From a virus: a DNA stretch of 25,595 bases. Both the position numbers and the translations under genes were made by a program. The stretch lies in the IMG/VR virus record IMGVR_UViG_3300046516_000195, positions 1 to 25,595 of that record; one strand, written 5' to 3'. The notes below the pieces were generated by a model that saw nothing but the letters and a program-made list of their open reading frames with translations, was not told where the DNA came from and ran no database searches. This document shows positions 2,249-20,902 of the stretch, piece by piece; the first letter of the stretch is position 1, and each line of letters opens with the position of its first letter.

Positions 2249-2644
2249 TCAACAGTTAATCTGCAGACCTCCAGCGCCGAACATGCGGGCCAGCGTCAAA
2301 TACCGGACACCATACGATGTGAGATTCCAGAAACCGCCACCGTCGATGATTGCGGCCGATGTGTCATAGCTGACACTTACCTTATCTACCGCTTTCGATG
2401 CCTGCGGCCCTGTCATGATGCCCGGGGTTCCGCCGGTAGCAGCAGCCGCCTCATCGCGCACCGATAGCACCAGGTGGTGCGCCGTCACGAGTTCAATGCC
2501 GATGTTAGTCAGTTCGACCCATCGGTCAGCGTTGACGAGCGATGCCGCCACCGTCAGCCACGTTTGAACCAACGAATCCGGGTAACGCGTGGGATCATTG
2601 AATTCGGGGAAGTCCGATCGTAGCTGAGCAGGGGTAACGGTCAT
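2249..2644 (-). CDS. DUF4054 head-tail connector protein
   Basis: The protein has 131 residues when started at the ATG at 2644 (MTVTPAQLRSDFPEFNDPTR). This N-terminus, the W-L-T-V-A core and the YLTLARMFGAGG end match DUF4054, a small adaptor family found beside the capsid gene in phages with DUF2184 capsids. The start overlaps the upstream stop as ATGA, a coupled start, so a longer in-frame reading beginning at 2728 is rejected. It probably forms the first connector ring under the portal (inferred). Confidence 0.75.
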   Translation of the reverse strand: MTVTPAQLRSDFPEFNDPTRYPDSLVQTWLTVAASLVNADRWVELTNIGIELVTAHHLVLSVRDEAAAATGGTPGIMTGPQASKAVDKVSVSYDTSAAIIDGGGFWNLTSYGVRYLTLARMFGAGGLQINC

Positions 2645-2832
2645 GGTTTCGCGGGTCGTGCAGGTTTGCGCTTCTCGTCCGGTTCTACCGCGGCGATGGG
2701 CGCTTCGTCTGTGTGAAGCAGAACCCACCAGTGACTTTCGTACTCGGCGGGGATTTCTTCACCGGCCTTGATATACAGCGGCCGGCAGTCGTCGCGGGTC
2801 AGGGTGAAATCCTGATTGGCGATGCGGGTCAT
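2641..2832 (-). CDS. Small hypothetical virion-module protein
   Basis: The protein has 63 residues and no recognised family. It has an N-terminal strand-like part with two Trp residues (SHWWVLL, residues 33-39) and a charged, Pro/Lys-rich tail that is probably disordered. GGAG lies 7 bases before the ATG. The gene sits between the major capsid protein and DUF4054, overlapping the latter by the 4 bases ATGA. Small genes at this point in related phages have no known role. Confidence 0.65.
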   Translation of the reverse strand: MTRIANQDFTLTRDDCRPLYIKAGEEIPAEYESHWWVLLHTDEAPIAAVEPDEKRKPARPAKP

Positions 2833-9224: not shown

Positions 9225-10631
9225 TTATCCTGCGAGCGCAGCCCATTGAGCAAGGCCGCCACCAATCAGATGCGAGAACGCTCGCGAGAGTGAGTCGATC
9301 TGATCGTCGAAACTTCCGTTCGGGAACATTCGCATCTCGTCGATCAGCGCTGCATTCCAGCTACCGCGGAGCATGACGACGTTGCCGACGTTCACCTGTG
9401 CAGCGAATGGCTCGGCTCGCGTAACCTTGTCGCCAGATTCCGGCGACGTCGTGACTGGGTAGCCGACGAGCTCGCGCGTGAGGTACAGGACTTGTGTCTT
9501 GCCAGCCTGCCCAGGGTCTTGCGGGATACTTATCTTGGTCGAGACGCCATCCTGCGAGGCTGTATTGACCATCGCTGCATCGCGTTCATCAGGGCCGACG
9601 CGAAGTCGAACCATGTCTGCGATAACGAAGCGACCATCAGGCAGACGGCCAATCTTGCCGCCCGCGGTGAAGTCGCCATCCGTGGTGCTGGCCAAGTCCC
9701 AGCCGCGCACCCACTGGATGTGGCCGTAGGGCAGCGCATCAATGACCTGAATCTGGTCAGGCATGAATATTCCGCCTTCAGCCGGCGCCGGGCGTTGCTG
9801 ATACTGCCCGGCGAACGTATAAGGCGATGCCGCTTCCATGCGGCGCAATTCTTCGACGCTGTGCTTTTCGGGCCACAGCGCTGTACCGTCATCCTGCAGA
9901 GCAGGGAGGCATACATGCTCCCACTTCTCGCCGTTACCGCCAGCGAGCAGCCATCCCGCCAGATCGCTCTCATGCAAGCGCTGCATGATGAGGATGATCG
10001 GCGTGTCAGGTGAGTTTTTACGGGATTCGAACGTGTTCTGAAACCAGTCGATGACGTTCTGGCGCATCACATCGGACCGGGCTTCATCCGCCTTGTGCGG
10101 ATCGTCGATCAGTAGTGCGCCACCAAATCCGGGCCGATGCTTACCAGCGCCATAACCGGTGATCGTGCCGCCCGCACCAACGGCGTACATGATGCCGCCA
10201 GCGCTAGTGCGCCATTCGTCCTTTGCCTGGCTATCTTCTCGCAGGCCGATGCCACTGAAAATGGCCCGATAGATCGGCTCTTGAATCAGCCCACGGACAT
10301 CCCACGAGGATGCTGCCGCCAAGCGTCCGGAGTAGGACGTGTAAATGAACTCGCTGTCGGGCGCGTGACCCAGTGACCATGCGATGAACGATTTGACGAG
10401 TTCGGTCTTGCTGTAGCGAGGCGGAATGTTGATGATCAACCGCTTTGTCTCGCCGCGGAAGATCTTCTCTAGCGCGTCGCAGATCAGGAAGTGATGACGC
10501 GCTTCCTGCCACTCGTAGCCGCGCCGATACTTGAATACGGTCTTAGCAAACGAAAGCAGGCTATTTCTTGCTTCGCGCCTTTCCAGCAACAGCCGCGCCG
10601 CTTCCTGCTGCGATAGCGGCAAGTTGTTCAT
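9225..10631 (-). CDS. terL: Terminase large subunit
   Basis: The protein has 468 residues, a usual TerL length. The ATPase has a deviant Walker A (PPRYSKT, residues 70-76), the adenine-motif-like TSYSGRLAAA (98-107) and Walker B (ALLIDDPHK, 172-180). The nuclease half begins with GWDLAST (about 310-316), whose Asp is the first metal ligand in the RNase H-like fold. It cuts concatemers and pumps DNA into proheads through the portal. Its start lies 71 bases inside the small-subunit gene; no other Met occurs before the conserved region, so the overlap is real. Confidence 0.93.
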   Translation of the reverse strand: MNNLPLSQQEAARLLLERREARNSLLSFAKTVFKYRRGYEWQEARHHFLICDALEKIFRGETKRLIINIPPRYSKTELVKSFIAWSLGHAPDSEFIYTSYSGRLAAASSWDVRGLIQEPIYRAIFSGIGLREDSQAKDEWRTSAGGIMYAVGAGGTITGYGAGKHRPGFGGALLIDDPHKADEARSDVMRQNVIDWFQNTFESRKNSPDTPIILIMQRLHESDLAGWLLAGGNGEKWEHVCLPALQDDGTALWPEKHSVEELRRMEAASPYTFAGQYQQRPAPAEGGIFMPDQIQVIDALPYGHIQWVRGWDLASTTDGDFTAGGKIGRLPDGRFVIADMVRLRVGPDERDAAMVNTASQDGVSTKISIPQDPGQAGKTQVLYLTRELVGYPVTTSPESGDKVTRAEPFAAQVNVGNVVMLRGSWNAALIDEMRMFPNGSFDDQIDSLSRAFSHLIGGGLAQWAALAG

Positions 10632-11058
10632 CCGTCATCTCGATTGGGGTCGCGGGAACGAGCGGAGCGCCATCCTTGCCAGTGATTTCCTGCTCCACCT
10701 TGTCGCGCCACTTCCCGCGCTGTCGGTTCTTTAGCCAGAAGATCGCCGCTGCCGTGTCGGGCGGGTAGATCTTGGTGATGGGCGTCTCAACGATTGCGCC
10801 GTTGACTACGCGAAGATCAATCTCAGGATGTTCAAATCCCATCGCTCGCTGATGCAGCCGGTCGGCCACATCGGAATCAGCTTGCGCCTTTCCCTTTTTT
10901 ATGGACTCGGAAAACCCCGGATGGACCTTCTTCCATTCGTGTATCGAGTCTTCCGACACCTCGAAGAAGTCGGCCAGTTCGATATCAGTCGCACCCAGAA
11001 GACAAAGCTTCCTGGCCTGCTCATCGAACTCAGGCCGGTATTTGCTTGGTCTTGCCAT
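10561..11058 (-). CDS. terS: Terminase small subunit
   Basis: The protein has 165 residues. An N-terminal HTH (about residues 17-45: LCLLGATDIELADFFEVS and following) recognises DNA; the middle (KGKAQADSDVADRLHQRAMG) and the IYPPDTAAAIFWLKNRQRGKW stretch are hallmarks of phage small terminases. It selects the packaging start site and loads TerL. It lies just upstream of, and overlaps, terL. The 5' side is a non-coding spacer holding a tRNA-like element. The ribosome site is weak. Confidence 0.88.
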   Translation of the reverse strand: MARPSKYRPEFDEQARKLCLLGATDIELADFFEVSEDSIHEWKKVHPGFSESIKKGKAQADSDVADRLHQRAMGFEHPEIDLRVVNGAIVETPITKIYPPDTAAAIFWLKNRQRGKWRDKVEQEITGKDGAPLVPATPIEMTDEQLAAIAAGSGAAVAGKARSKK

Positions 11059-11114
11059 GATCTGAGTTATCTATTTCTTTCAGGGGCGCAGCGCATCGGA
11101 TAAATCCACTCAAG

Positions 11115-11199
11115 AGTAGGGGCTGGACTTTAACCAGCGACCTGCAGGTTCGGGCGCAGCCCTAAGCCTGCCGCTCTCCAATCACTGAGCTACCCTACT
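11115..11199 (-). tRNA. tRNA-like cloverleaf with enlarged anticodon loop
   Basis: Read on the minus strand this folds as a class-I tRNA: a perfect 7-bp acceptor AGTAGGG/CCCTACT, bases T8 A9, D-stem GCTC/GAGC with a 10-base loop, G26, anticodon stem GCAGG/CCTGC, variable loop AGGTC, T-stem GCTGG/CCAGC and a 7-base T-loop. Two things are wrong for a normal tRNA: the anticodon loop has 18 bases (11149-11166), holding a self-complementary GGGC-TGC-GCCC, and the T-loop is TTAAAGT, with A where C56 is expected. CCA is not encoded. It may be a pseudo-tRNA, a tRNA with an 11-base insert, or a tRNA mimic. No amino acid is assigned. Confidence 0.65.
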
Positions 11200-11288
11200 G
11201 TTGAGCGGCTCCACTCTCTCGGCGGCACAATCACAATCGCCGCGAGCAGGATGCAGTAGGCGAGGGATAGGGTGGTGGGGGTGATCAT
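11190..11288 (-). CDS. Small single-pass membrane peptide
   Basis: The peptide has 32 residues from the ATG at 11288, which overlaps the stop of the metallophosphoesterase gene as ATGA. The sequence has a short polar start, a hydrophobic span (LSLAYCILLAAIVIV, residues 7-21) and a charged C-terminus with R-E-W. Its TAG stop (11192-11190) overlaps bases 8-10 of the tRNA-like element. No family is recognised. The coupled start and the clean membrane span support a real gene. Confidence 0.5.
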   Translation of the reverse strand: MITPTTLSLAYCILLAAIVIVPPREWSRSTVG

Positions 11289-12475
11289 GCGGCCACCTCG
11301 AACATCTCGGGGACAACCGTGTTTCTAGCCACCTCACCATATGCGACGTGGTAGGTAATCGCCTGAGCCGATCGTTCGGACACGTAGCCATGGCGCGCTG
11401 AATGGGCGTCATTCGCCGCAAGCGTCCGATGCTGCACAACGGTCACGCCGTTATGCTCTTTCTCATCTTTATGATGCTGATGACCCGTATGGATCACCCG
11501 CTTCGTCGTCGCTCCCCACATTGCCGGAAACTTCGAAGCGAACAGCAGCGGCATGTTTTCCTTCCGGGTCAAGTGACCGTGGTGGAAGCCAAGCATGTTC
11601 GTGCCGTGTTGCCATGCGTAATAGGGCGATTCCGAATCGATCACCTCGACGCGCGGCTCGTTCTCGTAAAGTGCACGGAACATGGCGCGAAGCCATACGC
11701 TAGAACTGAGGTCGTGATTCCCTTCCGCCATCAGCACGACAACCTTCTCGTGCCGCTCCAGCGCGAAATCAACGATTCTGCGCAGCACCCGAATGGCTAC
11801 GCCAACGATCTTTGAATACCGCCCGTCCTGGTCGAGGATATTCGAGTGAAGGGGCGTCACTGGCAACATGCCGCCGCTCCCGTCGCTATGCAGGAAATCG
11901 CCGAGCTGCGCAATGAACGCGGTGCTCGCCTTCGGTGCGGCTTCAATCATGTGCGCGAACGCTGCAATCAGCGTGCGTTCAGCAATCTTCAGATCCCAGT
12001 CGGCGCCAGTCTCTTTACCCCAAGCCAACATGCCAAGGTGGTAATCAGTGAACGTGTACAGGTTGCACAGCGCCTCGCAGGTGCCTTTGGGCATCGGGGC
12101 TGGCTTCACCCGCGGCAACGTCTCTGCCATCGCGGCGCACGCCTCGCGGAAGATCTCCGCCTGGCGATCAGCGTTCACTGCGGACTTCACCCACTGCGCG
12201 CGAGGCTTCCCCTCGTCGTCATAGTAGGTCGACACGCCCTTGACCATGAAACCGTCTGGGACGGTCTTGGTCATGTCATGGCGCGGGCTGAAACCCATCT
12301 TCGCTGCCCGGATCTGCAGCGCATCGAGCGCGCGGATGATCGAGCTGTGATGGACGTCCAGCGCCTTGGCCGCTGCGTTCGGCGAGCCATGCTCAAATAT
12401 GGCTTTCAGGAAATCCGCCTCCCGCGGCGCGGCAAACTCCAACAAACCTTTGTCGTATTGTCGTGCTGCGGCCAC
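11285..12475 (-). CDS. Metallophosphoesterase with N-terminal HTH
   Basis: The protein has 396 residues from a GTG start (12475) with AAAGGGG upstream. Residues 15-55 form an HTH/winged-helix-like part (GSPNAAAKALDVHHSSIIRAL). The calcineurin-like metal site follows: D-x-H in FTDYHLG (142-148), GD in LGDFLHSDG (191-199), GNHD (252-255), then FHHGH and HTGHQHH late in the protein. Similar HTH-phosphoesterase proteins occur in other phages without known substrate. Placement between the early genes and terS is compatible with a DNA-end or nucleotide processing role, but this is inference. Confidence 0.85.
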   Translation of the reverse strand: MAAARQYDKGLLEFAAPREADFLKAIFEHGSPNAAAKALDVHHSSIIRALDALQIRAAKMGFSPRHDMTKTVPDGFMVKGVSTYYDDEGKPRAQWVKSAVNADRQAEIFREACAAMAETLPRVKPAPMPKGTCEALCNLYTFTDYHLGMLAWGKETGADWDLKIAERTLIAAFAHMIEAAPKASTAFIAQLGDFLHSDGSGGMLPVTPLHSNILDQDGRYSKIVGVAIRVLRRIVDFALERHEKVVVLMAEGNHDLSSSVWLRAMFRALYENEPRVEVIDSESPYYAWQHGTNMLGFHHGHLTRKENMPLLFASKFPAMWGATTKRVIHTGHQHHKDEKEHNGVTVVQHRTLAANDAHSARHGYVSERSAQAITYHVAYGEVARNTVVPEMFEVAA

Positions 12476-14530: not shown

Positions 14531-14934
14531 GCCGCCACCTCCATAACCTTTATCAGACCGCGCGTCACGAATTTCGGGAGCAACAACTCCTTCGCGTCCT
14601 GATAGTACTGGTGAGATTCTTCGGGACTCAGGCGCGGATTAGAGAACACGGAATATCCAGCGCGCTTATTGGTCATGGATGTTTGAATTGCCGCTCTGTG
14701 TTGCCATGTCGGCAGAGCATCGACACACGCATCCACAGTCTCGCCATTGCGCTTGAAAATCTTCGCGTCTACGGCCTCGGAGCGCTCTTGATCCGTCTGA
14801 TGCTTTGCCGGAATCTCGTACTCACGACAGGTGGGTGAGCAGCGCGGGGCTCCCAGTTGCGGACGATAGCCGTCCTGCCAGCGATGCCACTGGATCAAGA
14901 GTTCTTCAACTTGCTCGGATTGGTCTTGCGTCAT
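14527..14934 (-). CDS. Candidate late regulator (Q position), unknown family
   Basis: The protein has 135 residues. Notable segments are the N-terminal helix LLIQWHRWQDGYRP, SPTCREYE, and a helical second half with VDALPTWQHRAAIQTSM and YYQDAKELLLPKFVTRGLI. Similar short proteins are common at the end of the early operon in phages of related hosts. Its position, last of the early genes and followed by terminators, tRNA-like elements and then terS, is where lambdoid phages encode antiterminator Q. I do not see a known Q family motif, so the regulatory role is inferred from position only. Confidence 0.6.
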   Translation of the reverse strand: MTQDQSEQVEELLIQWHRWQDGYRPQLGAPRCSPTCREYEIPAKHQTDQERSEAVDAKIFKRNGETVDACVDALPTWQHRAAIQTSMTNKRAGYSVFSNPRLSPEESHQYYQDAKELLLPKFVTRGLIKVMEVAA

Positions 14935-15419
14935 TTTGAACCCCCGACCACGTTGCTTAGGTTGACGAACTCGCCGTGGTACTCGACCGCCGCACTACGA
15001 TATGCTGCGTGAGCCTGTTCCGGCGTTTCGAACGACCCTAGCCACTTTTGCTCTCCGTCAACCTTGATCGACGAAACCCACTTCCGATTGCTAGCGCTCC
15101 AGCTAACCCCCTTTAGGCCTACCGCATTGTCACGACGCACGCCGATGTTGTAGTGATTTTGGCGATGTGTACAAATGCGAAGATTTGAGCGCTGATTGTT
15201 TGTCTTTTGCCTGTCAACGTGATCGATCTGACGCTTATCTTCCTTTGCCATACCCATGATTAGGCGATGCATGTAGACGCCCCTGAAAGCGCCAGCGTCT
15301 TTGATCATGGCACGCGCGTATCCGTTTGTGCTTACATGCCACCTCCACTGCGAAAGCAACTCATAATCCGCATCATCGACGAGAGCTACTGCGCCGTGTG
15401 TCAATGGAATCTCTTTCAC
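14931..15419 (-). CDS. HNH homing endonuclease with AP2 domain
   Basis: The protein has 162 residues from a GTG start (15419). The HNH part has MHRLIMG (50-56), IDHVDRQKTNNQRSNLR (65-81) and the NHYN end (88-91). An AP2 DNA-binding domain follows (103-154: LKGVSWSASNRKWVSSI, then WLGSFETPEQAHAAYRSAA). AP2-HNH proteins are well-known mobile endonucleases of phages. It is the first gene after a sigma70-type promoter (15489-15517) and couples to the next gene by ATGA. It is full length with no damage seen, so probably active. Confidence 0.9.
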   Translation of the reverse strand: MKEIPLTHGAVALVDDADYELLSQWRWHVSTNGYARAMIKDAGAFRGVYMHRLIMGMAKEDKRQIDHVDRQKTNNQRSNLRICTHRQNHYNIGVRRDNAVGLKGVSWSASNRKWVSSIKVDGEQKWLGSFETPEQAHAAYRSAAVEYHGEFVNLSNVVGGSK

Positions 15420-15530: not shown

Positions 15531-15887
15531 TCAATCGGTAAGTTGTGACTCAATTTCAATCACTCGCACTCCTGCCGCTTTCGCTTGCTTGATCATGTTC
15601 GCCGTGCCTCGGCCGCCGGGAAATGCGATTACCAGATCCGGCTTGTAATCTAGCATCCGTGCGTTGCGAATTGGCCCGGCTCCGCGCCCATTCTTGCTCC
15701 AGTTTGCAGGCACGGTCAGGCAGTCGATGCACCGATTCATCGCCCAGTAATGTGCCAACTCGTCGGCTCCGTGCGCGCCACCCTCAATTAGCATGGCGAT
15801 TGGATGCACCGCGTGCTGCGCGTCCAATATTGAAAGCATCCGCTCCATGTTGCGATAATCACGACCACCACATACGATTACTTTCAT
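15531..15887 (-). CDS. SLOG-family protein (DUF2493, YspA-like)
   Basis: The protein has 118 residues from the ATG at 15887, which has GGAGGT 8-9 bases upstream and overlaps the previous stop as ATGA. It has the SLOG/Rossmann-like signatures of DUF2493: VCGGRDYRN (5-13), EGGAHGAD (35-42), GPIRNARML (71-79) and AFPGGRGT (88-95). Family members bind nucleotides or nucleotide-derived ligands and are thought to sense or process them. It is the last gene before a 111-base spacer with the promoter at 15489-15517. Two small membrane genes precede it. Confidence 0.85.
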   Translation of the reverse strand: MKVIVCGGRDYRNMERMLSILDAQHAVHPIAMLIEGGAHGADELAHYWAMNRCIDCLTVPANWSKNGRGAGPIRNARMLDYKPDLVIAFPGGRGTANMIKQAKAAGVRVIEIESQLTD

Positions 15888-16072
15888 TTCCGCGACCTCC
15901 CAATTGCATACCCCAGCACGGCTGGGAGTGCCATCAGCGTGAGGAAAACCACTTTGACCTCCATGGTGGACTCTGCTGTACTGAATAAGGCGATGCCGAC
16001 CCACAGAAACAGGAAGATCAGTATGTTCACCGGATCGGCTACAAACTCCGCGACTGCGCTTAAAAACTTCAT
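15884..16072 (-). CDS. Small two-pass membrane protein
   Basis: The protein has 62 residues from the ATG at 16072 (GGAG upstream). Two hydrophobic spans are seen: PVNILIFLFLWVGIALFS (about 14-31) and VVFLTLMALPAVLGYAIG (about 40-57), with a basic end RSRK. Size and layout are compatible with a small holin, but no lysis genes are nearby, so a holin call would be speculative. It is coupled to the SLOG gene by ATGA. Confidence 0.7.
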   Translation of the reverse strand: MKFLSAVAEFVADPVNILIFLFLWVGIALFSTAESTMEVKVVFLTLMALPAVLGYAIGRSRK

Positions 16073-16311
16073 TCCCGCTCTCCTGCGATGTTGATCCACT
16101 CATACCGAACGCCGTCATCTGTTGCTTTCGCCTCGACGTGCACGGTAGGCTGCACATGCTGAAACTCGGTGCCGGGCGCATTTTTCCACTTCCTGTTATG
16201 CATCGTCGGCGCCACATACCGCGGGCGGTGGAGTAGGTACACGGCAGCGAACACGGCGCAGTTGAATACGCCTAGGCCGTAGAAGGCGACGCAGAGTAGG
16301 GCGGTTTTCAT
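16069..16311 (-). CDS. Single-pass membrane protein with soluble tail
   Basis: The protein has 80 residues from the ATG at 16311 (AGGAG upstream). An N-terminal membrane anchor or uncleaved signal (TALLCVAFYGLGVFNCAVFA, about 3-22) is followed by a basic, His-rich soluble part. It has a ATGA overlap on both sides. No family is recognised. With the next two genes it forms a membrane-membrane-SLOG trio. Confidence 0.65.
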   Translation of the reverse strand: MKTALLCVAFYGLGVFNCAVFAAVYLLHRPRYVAPTMHNRKWKNAPGTEFQHVQPTVHVEAKATDDGVRYEWINIAGERE

Positions 16312-20431: not shown

Positions 20432-20902
20432 TTACGCCCACCTTTTATGATTAACGATCGCGGATACAGCCGGCTGGCTGATCCCGTACTTTTCTGCTAT
20501 CACGCGCTGTTTCTCGCCATCCGAATACAGCGCCCTAACATTCCGCACATCCTGGGTAGAAAGCCTCGCCAACGGGTGTTCGGCGCCCCTCAATCCGTGC
20601 TCCGATCCTTTCGCTTGACGACCTTTCTTGACCTTGTCTTCGTTATTGACCGTGCGCGTCCCAGCAAACAGATGTTCCGCATTCCAGCAACGACGGTTAT
20701 CGCAGCTATGTAGCGCGCAAATTCCGTCGTCCAACTTGTGCTTGTAATGCTCAAACGAAATTCTGTGCAGATACTGCCTAGTACCCTGATGTCGGACTGG
20801 AGCGTACCCATCTCGATTAACGTTGCCGTTGTATTCGATGCAGCCGTTCTCGCGGACTGTCGAATGTCTCAGCCACCGGGCCATTTGCTTCTCCGATGCC
20901 AT
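20432..20902 (-). CDS. HNH homing endonuclease with C-terminal HTH
   Basis: The protein has 156 residues. The HNH_3-type domain has LHRISFEHY (45-53), [17 protein letters not shown] (65-81) with the usual His-Cys-Asp-Asn and Cys-x-Asn pattern, and a [12 protein letters not shown] end. Residues 117-152 form an HTH with [19 protein letters not shown], the DNA-recognition part. It stands directly upstream of ssb, two bases from the ssb ATG. It is intact, so a mobile endonuclease that targets a nearby site is the likely reading. Confidence 0.9.

Follow-up and report, generated by a model that had tools for sequence, protein, structure and literature searches.

Gene content and features of the locus

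The window analyzed here is the whole of a 25,595-nt stretch of viral DNA (positions 1 to 25,595 of IMG/VR record IMGVR_UViG_3300046516_000195). A tRNA-like cloverleaf lies in it between two late genes, one for a metallophosphoesterase or DNA repair exonuclease (phrog_704), located upstream, and the other for the terminase small subunit (terS; phrog_309), located downstream, and the element and both genes are co-directional (Table 1). The first-pass annotation had described this cloverleaf without stating its strand; it reads from 11199 to 11115 on the minus strand. A 32-codon membrane-type open reading frame overlaps the stop of the phosphoesterase gene and ends on the TAG provided by T8-A9-G10 of the element, and shorter relatives of this frame occupy the same place in three related contigs (L083, L085, and L088). 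Searches of the locus found no promoter, no terminator at the element, and no encoded CCA.

Elsewhere in the window, two genes for HNH-type (homing) endonucleases, one with an AP2 domain, were found in the early/middle region, and a further gene encodes a YspA/YpsA-related SLOG-family protein (PF10686). The SLOG superfamily is often linked to nucleotide sensing. ARAGORN also called a tRNA-Ala(cgc) in the window, which is most likely a false positive, as it has no Rfam tRNA support at E 10 and the opposite strand is a coding region. Among named phages, the closest portal proteins come from Burkholderia phage BgManors32 (68%) and phage WC36-2 (72%), and neither phage carries a tRNA or the element.

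Table 1. Coordinates of the tRNA-like element, its parts, its neighbors, and other features discussed in the text
Feature	Position	Strand	Remarks
Phosphoesterase gene (phrog_704)	11285..12475	-	upstream neighbor
Membrane-type ORF (MITPTTLSLAYCILLAAIVIVPPREWSRSTVG)	11190..11288	-	
Extended acceptor stem, 5' strand CCGCTCAA	11201..11208	-	pairs with 11106-11113; compensatory changes in L186 and L465
tRNA-like cloverleaf, positions 1-72	11115..11199	-	acceptor 11193-11199 with 11115-11121
D-arm, GCTC-AGTGATTGGA-GAGC	11173..11190	-	invariant across four homologues
Anticodon arm	11144..11171	-	5-bp stem 11167-11171 with 11144-11148; 18-nt loop 11149-11166
Inner hairpin, GGGC-TGC-GCCC, replacing the decoding loop	11152..11162	-	GAGC-GAG-GCTC in L465; absent in L164
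Variable loop, AGGTC	11139..11143	-	invariant across four homologues
T-arm, GCTGG-TTAAAGT-CCAGC	11122..11138	-	5-bp T-stem; A56 at 11131
Extended acceptor stem, 3' strand TTGAGTGG	11106..11113	-	partner of 11201-11208
terS (phrog_309)	10561..11058	-	downstream neighbor; start 47 nt past the extended stem
HNH-type endonuclease genes	14931-15419; 20432-20902	-; -	
SLOG-family protein gene	15531-16217	-	
ARAGORN tRNA-Ala(cgc)	2614-2701	+	most likely a false positive
Bacillales tRNA-like genes	L197 7269-7353; L198 5671-5759; L213 488-572; L224 5180-5264; L226 6389-6476	+; +; -; -; +	also L474-L493

Structure and detection of the element

Each structural detail that had been read from the letters was found to be right on re-checking: the class I stems are perfect (7, 4, 5, and 5 bp) and T8, A9, and G26 are in place. 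The acceptor stem is AGTAGGG/CCCTACT and the anticodon stem GCAGG/CCTGC, the latter carrying an 18-nt loop (CTTAGGGCTGCGCCCGAA) whose inner hairpin GGGC-TGC-GCCC is present in the minimum-energy fold. The T-loop, TTAAAGT, has A56 in place of C56 as described, and deletion of the 11-nt inner part indeed leaves CTTAGAA. What the first-pass annotation had missed is that the flanks add another 8 bp beyond a C.C mismatch at -1:73, so that the acceptor end is closed. The full fold, comprising this 8-bp stem, the 7-bp acceptor stem, and the cloverleaf, has a predicted energy of -50.8 kcal/mol.

A check against the tRNA covariance model had been proposed, and Rfam RF00005 scored the element at 52.6 bits when given the short stretch (cut-off 29, E 6e-11). 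The folding energy of the element compared to shuffled sequences is unremarkable taken alone (z -1.2); it is the covariance-model score and the homologues described below, and not the folding energy, that show the structure is not due to chance. An Rfam run of the whole window at the gathering threshold did not report the element, probably due to the speed filters, and such elements are thus easily missed. ARAGORN named 11114-11199 "tRNA-???" and, when introns were allowed, tRNA-Leu(tag) with an 11-nt insert.

The C56A change in the form TTAAAGT is also seen in phage tRNAs whose anticodon loops have the normal 7 bases, and so loss of C56 alone does not mark a dead tRNA. These phage tRNAs (in L168, L170, L176, L194, and others) often belong to large tRNA clusters. 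Most of them have no G19 in the D-loop, as would be seen had the 19-56 elbow pair been given up or changed.

Homologues and covariation

Homologues were sought with patterns, exact or gapped, that had been derived from the T-arm and D-arm. Three close relatives were recovered from uncultivated phages in other metagenomes (L164, L186, and L465). An exact search with the whole anticodon arm returned no match, the nearest annotated phages, plasmids, and E. coli genomes matched only in chance-level pieces, and in relatives picked by terS or phosphoesterase similarity the element was mostly missing.

Across the window, L186, L465, and L164, there is no variable column in the D-arm, the variable loop, the T-stem, T8-A9, or G26, and only one in the T-loop. 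The anticodon loop is 18 bases long in the window (CTTA-GGGC-TGC-GCCC-GAA) and in L465 (CTTA-GAGC-GAG-GCTC-GAA), takes a 17-base form in L186, and is reduced in L164 to a bare GCAA cap (4 bases) atop a 5-bp stem, leaving no readable 7-base loop in any of them. When the structure is written out, 97% of cells in the four homologues are paired. Compensatory stem changes, which had been suggested as a check, were found in 7 of 34 pairs that are doubly changed (10 cells), compared to 3.3 +- 1.2 in shuffled alignments, none of 500 reaching as high a count; slid controls of the four-homologue alignment all gave zero. Such compensated pairs make up most of the variation in the stems; three fall in the extended stem, two in the acceptor stem, and one each in the anticodon stem and the inner hairpin. 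RNAalifold, unaided, predicted the same fold for the four homologues. As there are only four close members, kinship could inflate the shuffle statistic, and we regard the four-sequence covariation as good, though not overwhelming, evidence for the predicted structure.

Further support comes from a second group (L163, L184, and L193), which has a 3- to 9-base loop, an 8-bp acceptor stem, and 7 double-changed pairs of its own. Ten C56A elements, selected for anticodon loops other than 7 bases (18, 4, 17, 18, 3, 3, 9, 3, 6, and 5 bases), were then pooled, and 206 of their 210 stem cells are paired, compared to 157 +- 4.4 in shuffles (0/5000 as high). A56 is present in 10/10, the G19-C56 elbow pair being missing. 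In the search patterns, only the 5' strand of the D-arm and the T-loop plus its first two pairs were fixed; these patterns left the acceptor and anticodon stems free, and both stems thus provide independent evidence.

Taken together, the alignments show a tRNA-shaped structure that, judging from its compensated pairs, is kept under selection. It follows from the sequences that decoding is lost, and the closed acceptor end leads us to infer that charging is lost as well. Since the shape is kept by paired mutations in the relatives, it seemingly serves a purpose other than translation. The suggestion of selection for shape over decoding is thereby borne out, the stems of the homologues being compensated although the length of the anticodon loop runs through 18, 17, and 4 bases.

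Decay of a former phage tRNA gene with an insertion in its anticodon loop had been offered as the plainer alternative, and it would agree with the phage tRNA genes that fill the same slot in one relative (L084) and with the many odd tRNA-like genes of phages. The homologues speak against it: their stems do not decay like the loop but are intact in all members and compensated where changed, with only loop length varying freely, and covariation also preserves the acceptor extension and the inner hairpin. We therefore consider decay very improbable. Still less credible is a working tRNA with an 11-nt intron. Removal of GGGCTGCGCCC does leave CTTAGAA with the anticodon TAG, as in the ARAGORN intron call, but the body is class I, unlike tRNA-Leu, and there is no free acceptor end. 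This candidate was rejected on the evidence of L164, where the same body has a GCAA cap and no anticodon. Splicing of such introns is not known from bacteria.

Genomic setting of the homologues

The portal and head DNA of the window and L186 is 72-86% alike, and their phosphoesterase, terS, and terL proteins have no BLASTP similarity of note and belong to other families. The element is nonetheless retained in L186 between phosphoesterase and terminase genes. A cos or pac packaging site, a candidate in view of the element abutting terS, was rejected on these grounds, as the element is kept while the terS and terL families are replaced. In L164 and L465 the element also lies upstream of a terminase or terminase-like gene, and the genes upstream of it differ; the upstream frame stops on the TAG of T8-A9-G10 in L465, as in the window, and within the D-loop in L164. 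A co-directional gene start is found downstream of the element, at a distance of about 3-63 nt, in 4/4 members. Among other C56A elements, those of L163, L184, and L172 are not immediately before a start codon, and those of L165 and L184 adjoin ordinary tRNA genes, placements that count against the cis role proposed below.

In three relatives with the window-type phosphoesterase (L083, L085, and L088) the slot is empty, and in a fourth (L084) it holds tRNA-Asn, tRNA-Gln, and tRNA-Trp. The site is thus one for extra tRNA-type genes, with the element as an optional passenger. These observations raise the possibility of a small mobile or recombination-prone DNA cassette with inverted-repeat ends that occupies a tRNA slot, in which case the loci would be alike through recent transfer, or through crossover where modules meet, and not through RNA function. 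Similarity on the 3' side ends with the extended stem, and the neighboring modules are swapped, as such a cassette would predict. The 5' flank of L186 is also similar to that of the window, however, which leaves this side without a clean insertion boundary, and neither a transposase nor a second copy is present in the window record. Compensatory changes in every helix class except the D- and T-stems also require function as RNA (or as a hairpin), and we consider the cassette an unlikely explanation.

One separate instance was noted: the contig with the closest terS relative (L002) has a tRNA-like gene of its own at 1920-2005 on the plus strand, some 1 kb upstream of terS. Its anticodon loop has 20 bases and can form a CC-UUCG-GG hairpin, and it has a normal C56 and the T-loop TTCGAAT.

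Related tRNA-like genes elsewhere

A tRNA-like gene whose anticodon arm is long, variable, and non-decoding is present as a single copy on Bacillales chromosomes, and an intrinsic terminator follows it in several of them (Table 1). Among 299 Bacillales genomes sampled, 24 have this gene at an E cut-off of 1e-10. Most of these genes fit the pattern GGACTTG-TA-GCTC...GTGGG-TTMAARN-CCCAC-CAAGTCC; some have the T-loop TTAAAGT, others TTCAAAT or one like it, and Rfam sees only tRNA. Phage contigs, at least L377, L391, L404 (two), L453, L458, L462, L464, L396, and L422, also contain tRNA-like genes in which all four stems are intact and the anticodon loops have 3-5 or more than 12 bases. These mostly retain C56, and ARAGORN often calls them "tRNA-???" or gives them no name.

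Proposed role

We read the element as a phage-borne structural RNA module whose tRNA core (the D-arm, variable loop, T-arm, and acceptor stack) is maintained by selection, with decoding and, presumably, charging switched off: a capped hairpin replaces the anticodon loop and an 8-10 bp extension closes the acceptor end. Because the invariant part consists of the core loops (D, V, and T), a binding partner would most likely read the core and not the anticodon or acceptor end. The most likely role, to which we assign a probability of roughly 45%, is one in cis: placed in the late transcript shortly ahead of the terminase gene, or of whichever gene follows, the element would offer a docking site through its tRNA core. 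The docked factor could be the ribosome, RNase P/RNase Z, or another factor that recognizes the tRNA core, and docking would tune translation or processing of the downstream late genes. This reading is put first because the element is co-directional with its neighbors, lies near the next start in all four members, and has no promoter or terminator of its own, and because cis action of tRNA-like leaders is known. tRNAs grafted upstream of a Shine-Dalgarno sequence raise translation 2-6.3 fold (PMC9142559), and a larger regulatory RNA has been proposed to include tRNAOther (PMC3399842). That enhancer effect is independent of D- and T-loop sequence (PMC9142559), and so it leaves the frozen loops of the element unexplained. 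The G19-C56 face is a stacking surface for RNase P and the L1 stalk (PMC4810234); loss of C56 removes this face, which counts against the cis docking role.

A nearly invariant core next to differing downstream genes is as compatible with a trans-acting RNA as with a cis element that does not depend on the gene beside it. It is possible, though we judge it the less probable of these two, that the element is a tRNA mimic which is excised from the late transcript and occupies a tRNA-core-binding enzyme without being its substrate, such as a tRNA-cleaving defense protein or toxin, or a modification or processing enzyme. The absence of a promoter and terminator at the window element weighs against this. 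RNase III could cut a closed stem of such length out of the transcript, and the 84 bp centered on the element are the only DNA common to the two fetched loci L163 and L184 (93%). The stand-alone, decoding-dead genes of the Bacillales, several with a terminator, would speak in its favor, but these RNAs may be unrelated. Phage tRNAs are known to counter tRNA-targeting defenses (PMC10264068, PMC11555353), and the tRNA-like domain of YrlA, which is not cut by anticodon nuclease, has been proposed as a competitive inhibitor (PMC7790460). It is this proposal, together with a core that is frozen whichever gene adjoins, that makes the trans-acting mimic a close second to the cis role. The same considerations divide an earlier suggestion that the element is a decoy for anticodon nucleases: a substrate-type decoy is unlikely, since the element offers a nuclease no anticodon to cleave and in L164 the anticodon loop itself is missing, while a competitive binder through the tRNA core could still account for the element.

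A broader and more speculative proposal, which we hold to be improbable, is that decoding-dead tRNA-shaped RNAs with an A56 elbow and capped or extended anticodon arms form an unnamed class, spread across phages and some Bacillales, that act as free core mimics to hold off tRNA-targeting defense or processing enzymes and that tRNA finders report as "tRNA-???", as pseudogenes, or not at all. Our literature searches found no report on non-decoding phage tRNA-like RNAs.

Odd phage tRNA calls are usually discarded as pseudogenes, and here covariation marks one of them as a maintained RNA structure, which persists without decoding or a free acceptor end even where the genes to either side have been replaced. 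If the element docks a factor that binds the tRNA core, it would be a compact natural probe of what the elbow and core do beyond translation, in late gene expression or in phage defense, and the "undetermined" tRNAs of phages would deserve re-examination as regulatory or counter-defense RNAs.

Comparison with known systems

The element has the stems and the RF00005 score of a functional tRNA, and that assignment was rejected on the anticodon loop, the acceptor end, and G19-C56. A free CCA-bearing 3' end is not predicted, as covariation indicates that the flanks pair past position 73, though processing could still free the end. The tRNA-like structures of plant viruses are likewise a case of tRNA mimicry by viral RNA and have a free, usually chargeable 3' terminus, whereas the acceptor end here is closed and the element is internal to an operon. 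The phage tRNAs that evade tRNases resemble the element in being phage-encoded, in their tRNA fold, and in having changes concentrated in the anticodon loop (PMC10264068, PMC11555353), but they are functional tRNAs and the element is unable to decode.

Like the YrlA Y RNAs, the element is non-coding and has a tRNA-mimicking domain, and Y RNAs are also reported from phages (cited in PMC7790460, PMC12282133). Y RNAs partner with the Ro60/Rsr protein; Pfam found no Ro60 (TROVE) domain in the 20 proteins scanned from the window, the contig being a fragment, and no Y RNA family in Rfam reached threshold for the element. A Y RNA was thus rejected. The element shares with the tRNA-like yjdF aptamer and with grafted cis-tRNA leaders a tRNA-like fold upstream of a start codon and the lack of a free 3' end; those systems act in cis on translation (PMC9142559). 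The position is that of a leader, on the same strand and 47 nt before terS in the window, with the next gene starting about 3-63 nt further on in the three homologues. yjdF differs in being described as a ligand-binding aptamer with a purine-rich J1/2, while the element has plain class I tRNA junctions; in Rfam yjdF gave no match, and tRNA was the sole family up to E 10.

As the element fits neither a tRNA, a Y RNA, nor yjdF, we place it among tRNA-like elements or pseudo-tRNAs, outside the named families. Its fold is maintained, as in a pseudo-tRNA, and the missing anticodon suggests that it takes no part in translation. The tRNAOther of Bacillus cereus is also tRNA-shaped and reported to be non-translational; larger RNAs extend from it at both ends, which has led to the proposal that a larger regulatory RNA contains it as a tRNA-like element (PMC3399842). 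Compared by description, the two share a tRNA shape without a role in translation, and they differ in that tRNAOther still has a Trp anticodon and accepts an amino acid poorly in vitro (PMC3399842), whereas the element has no anticodon loop and a closed acceptor end.
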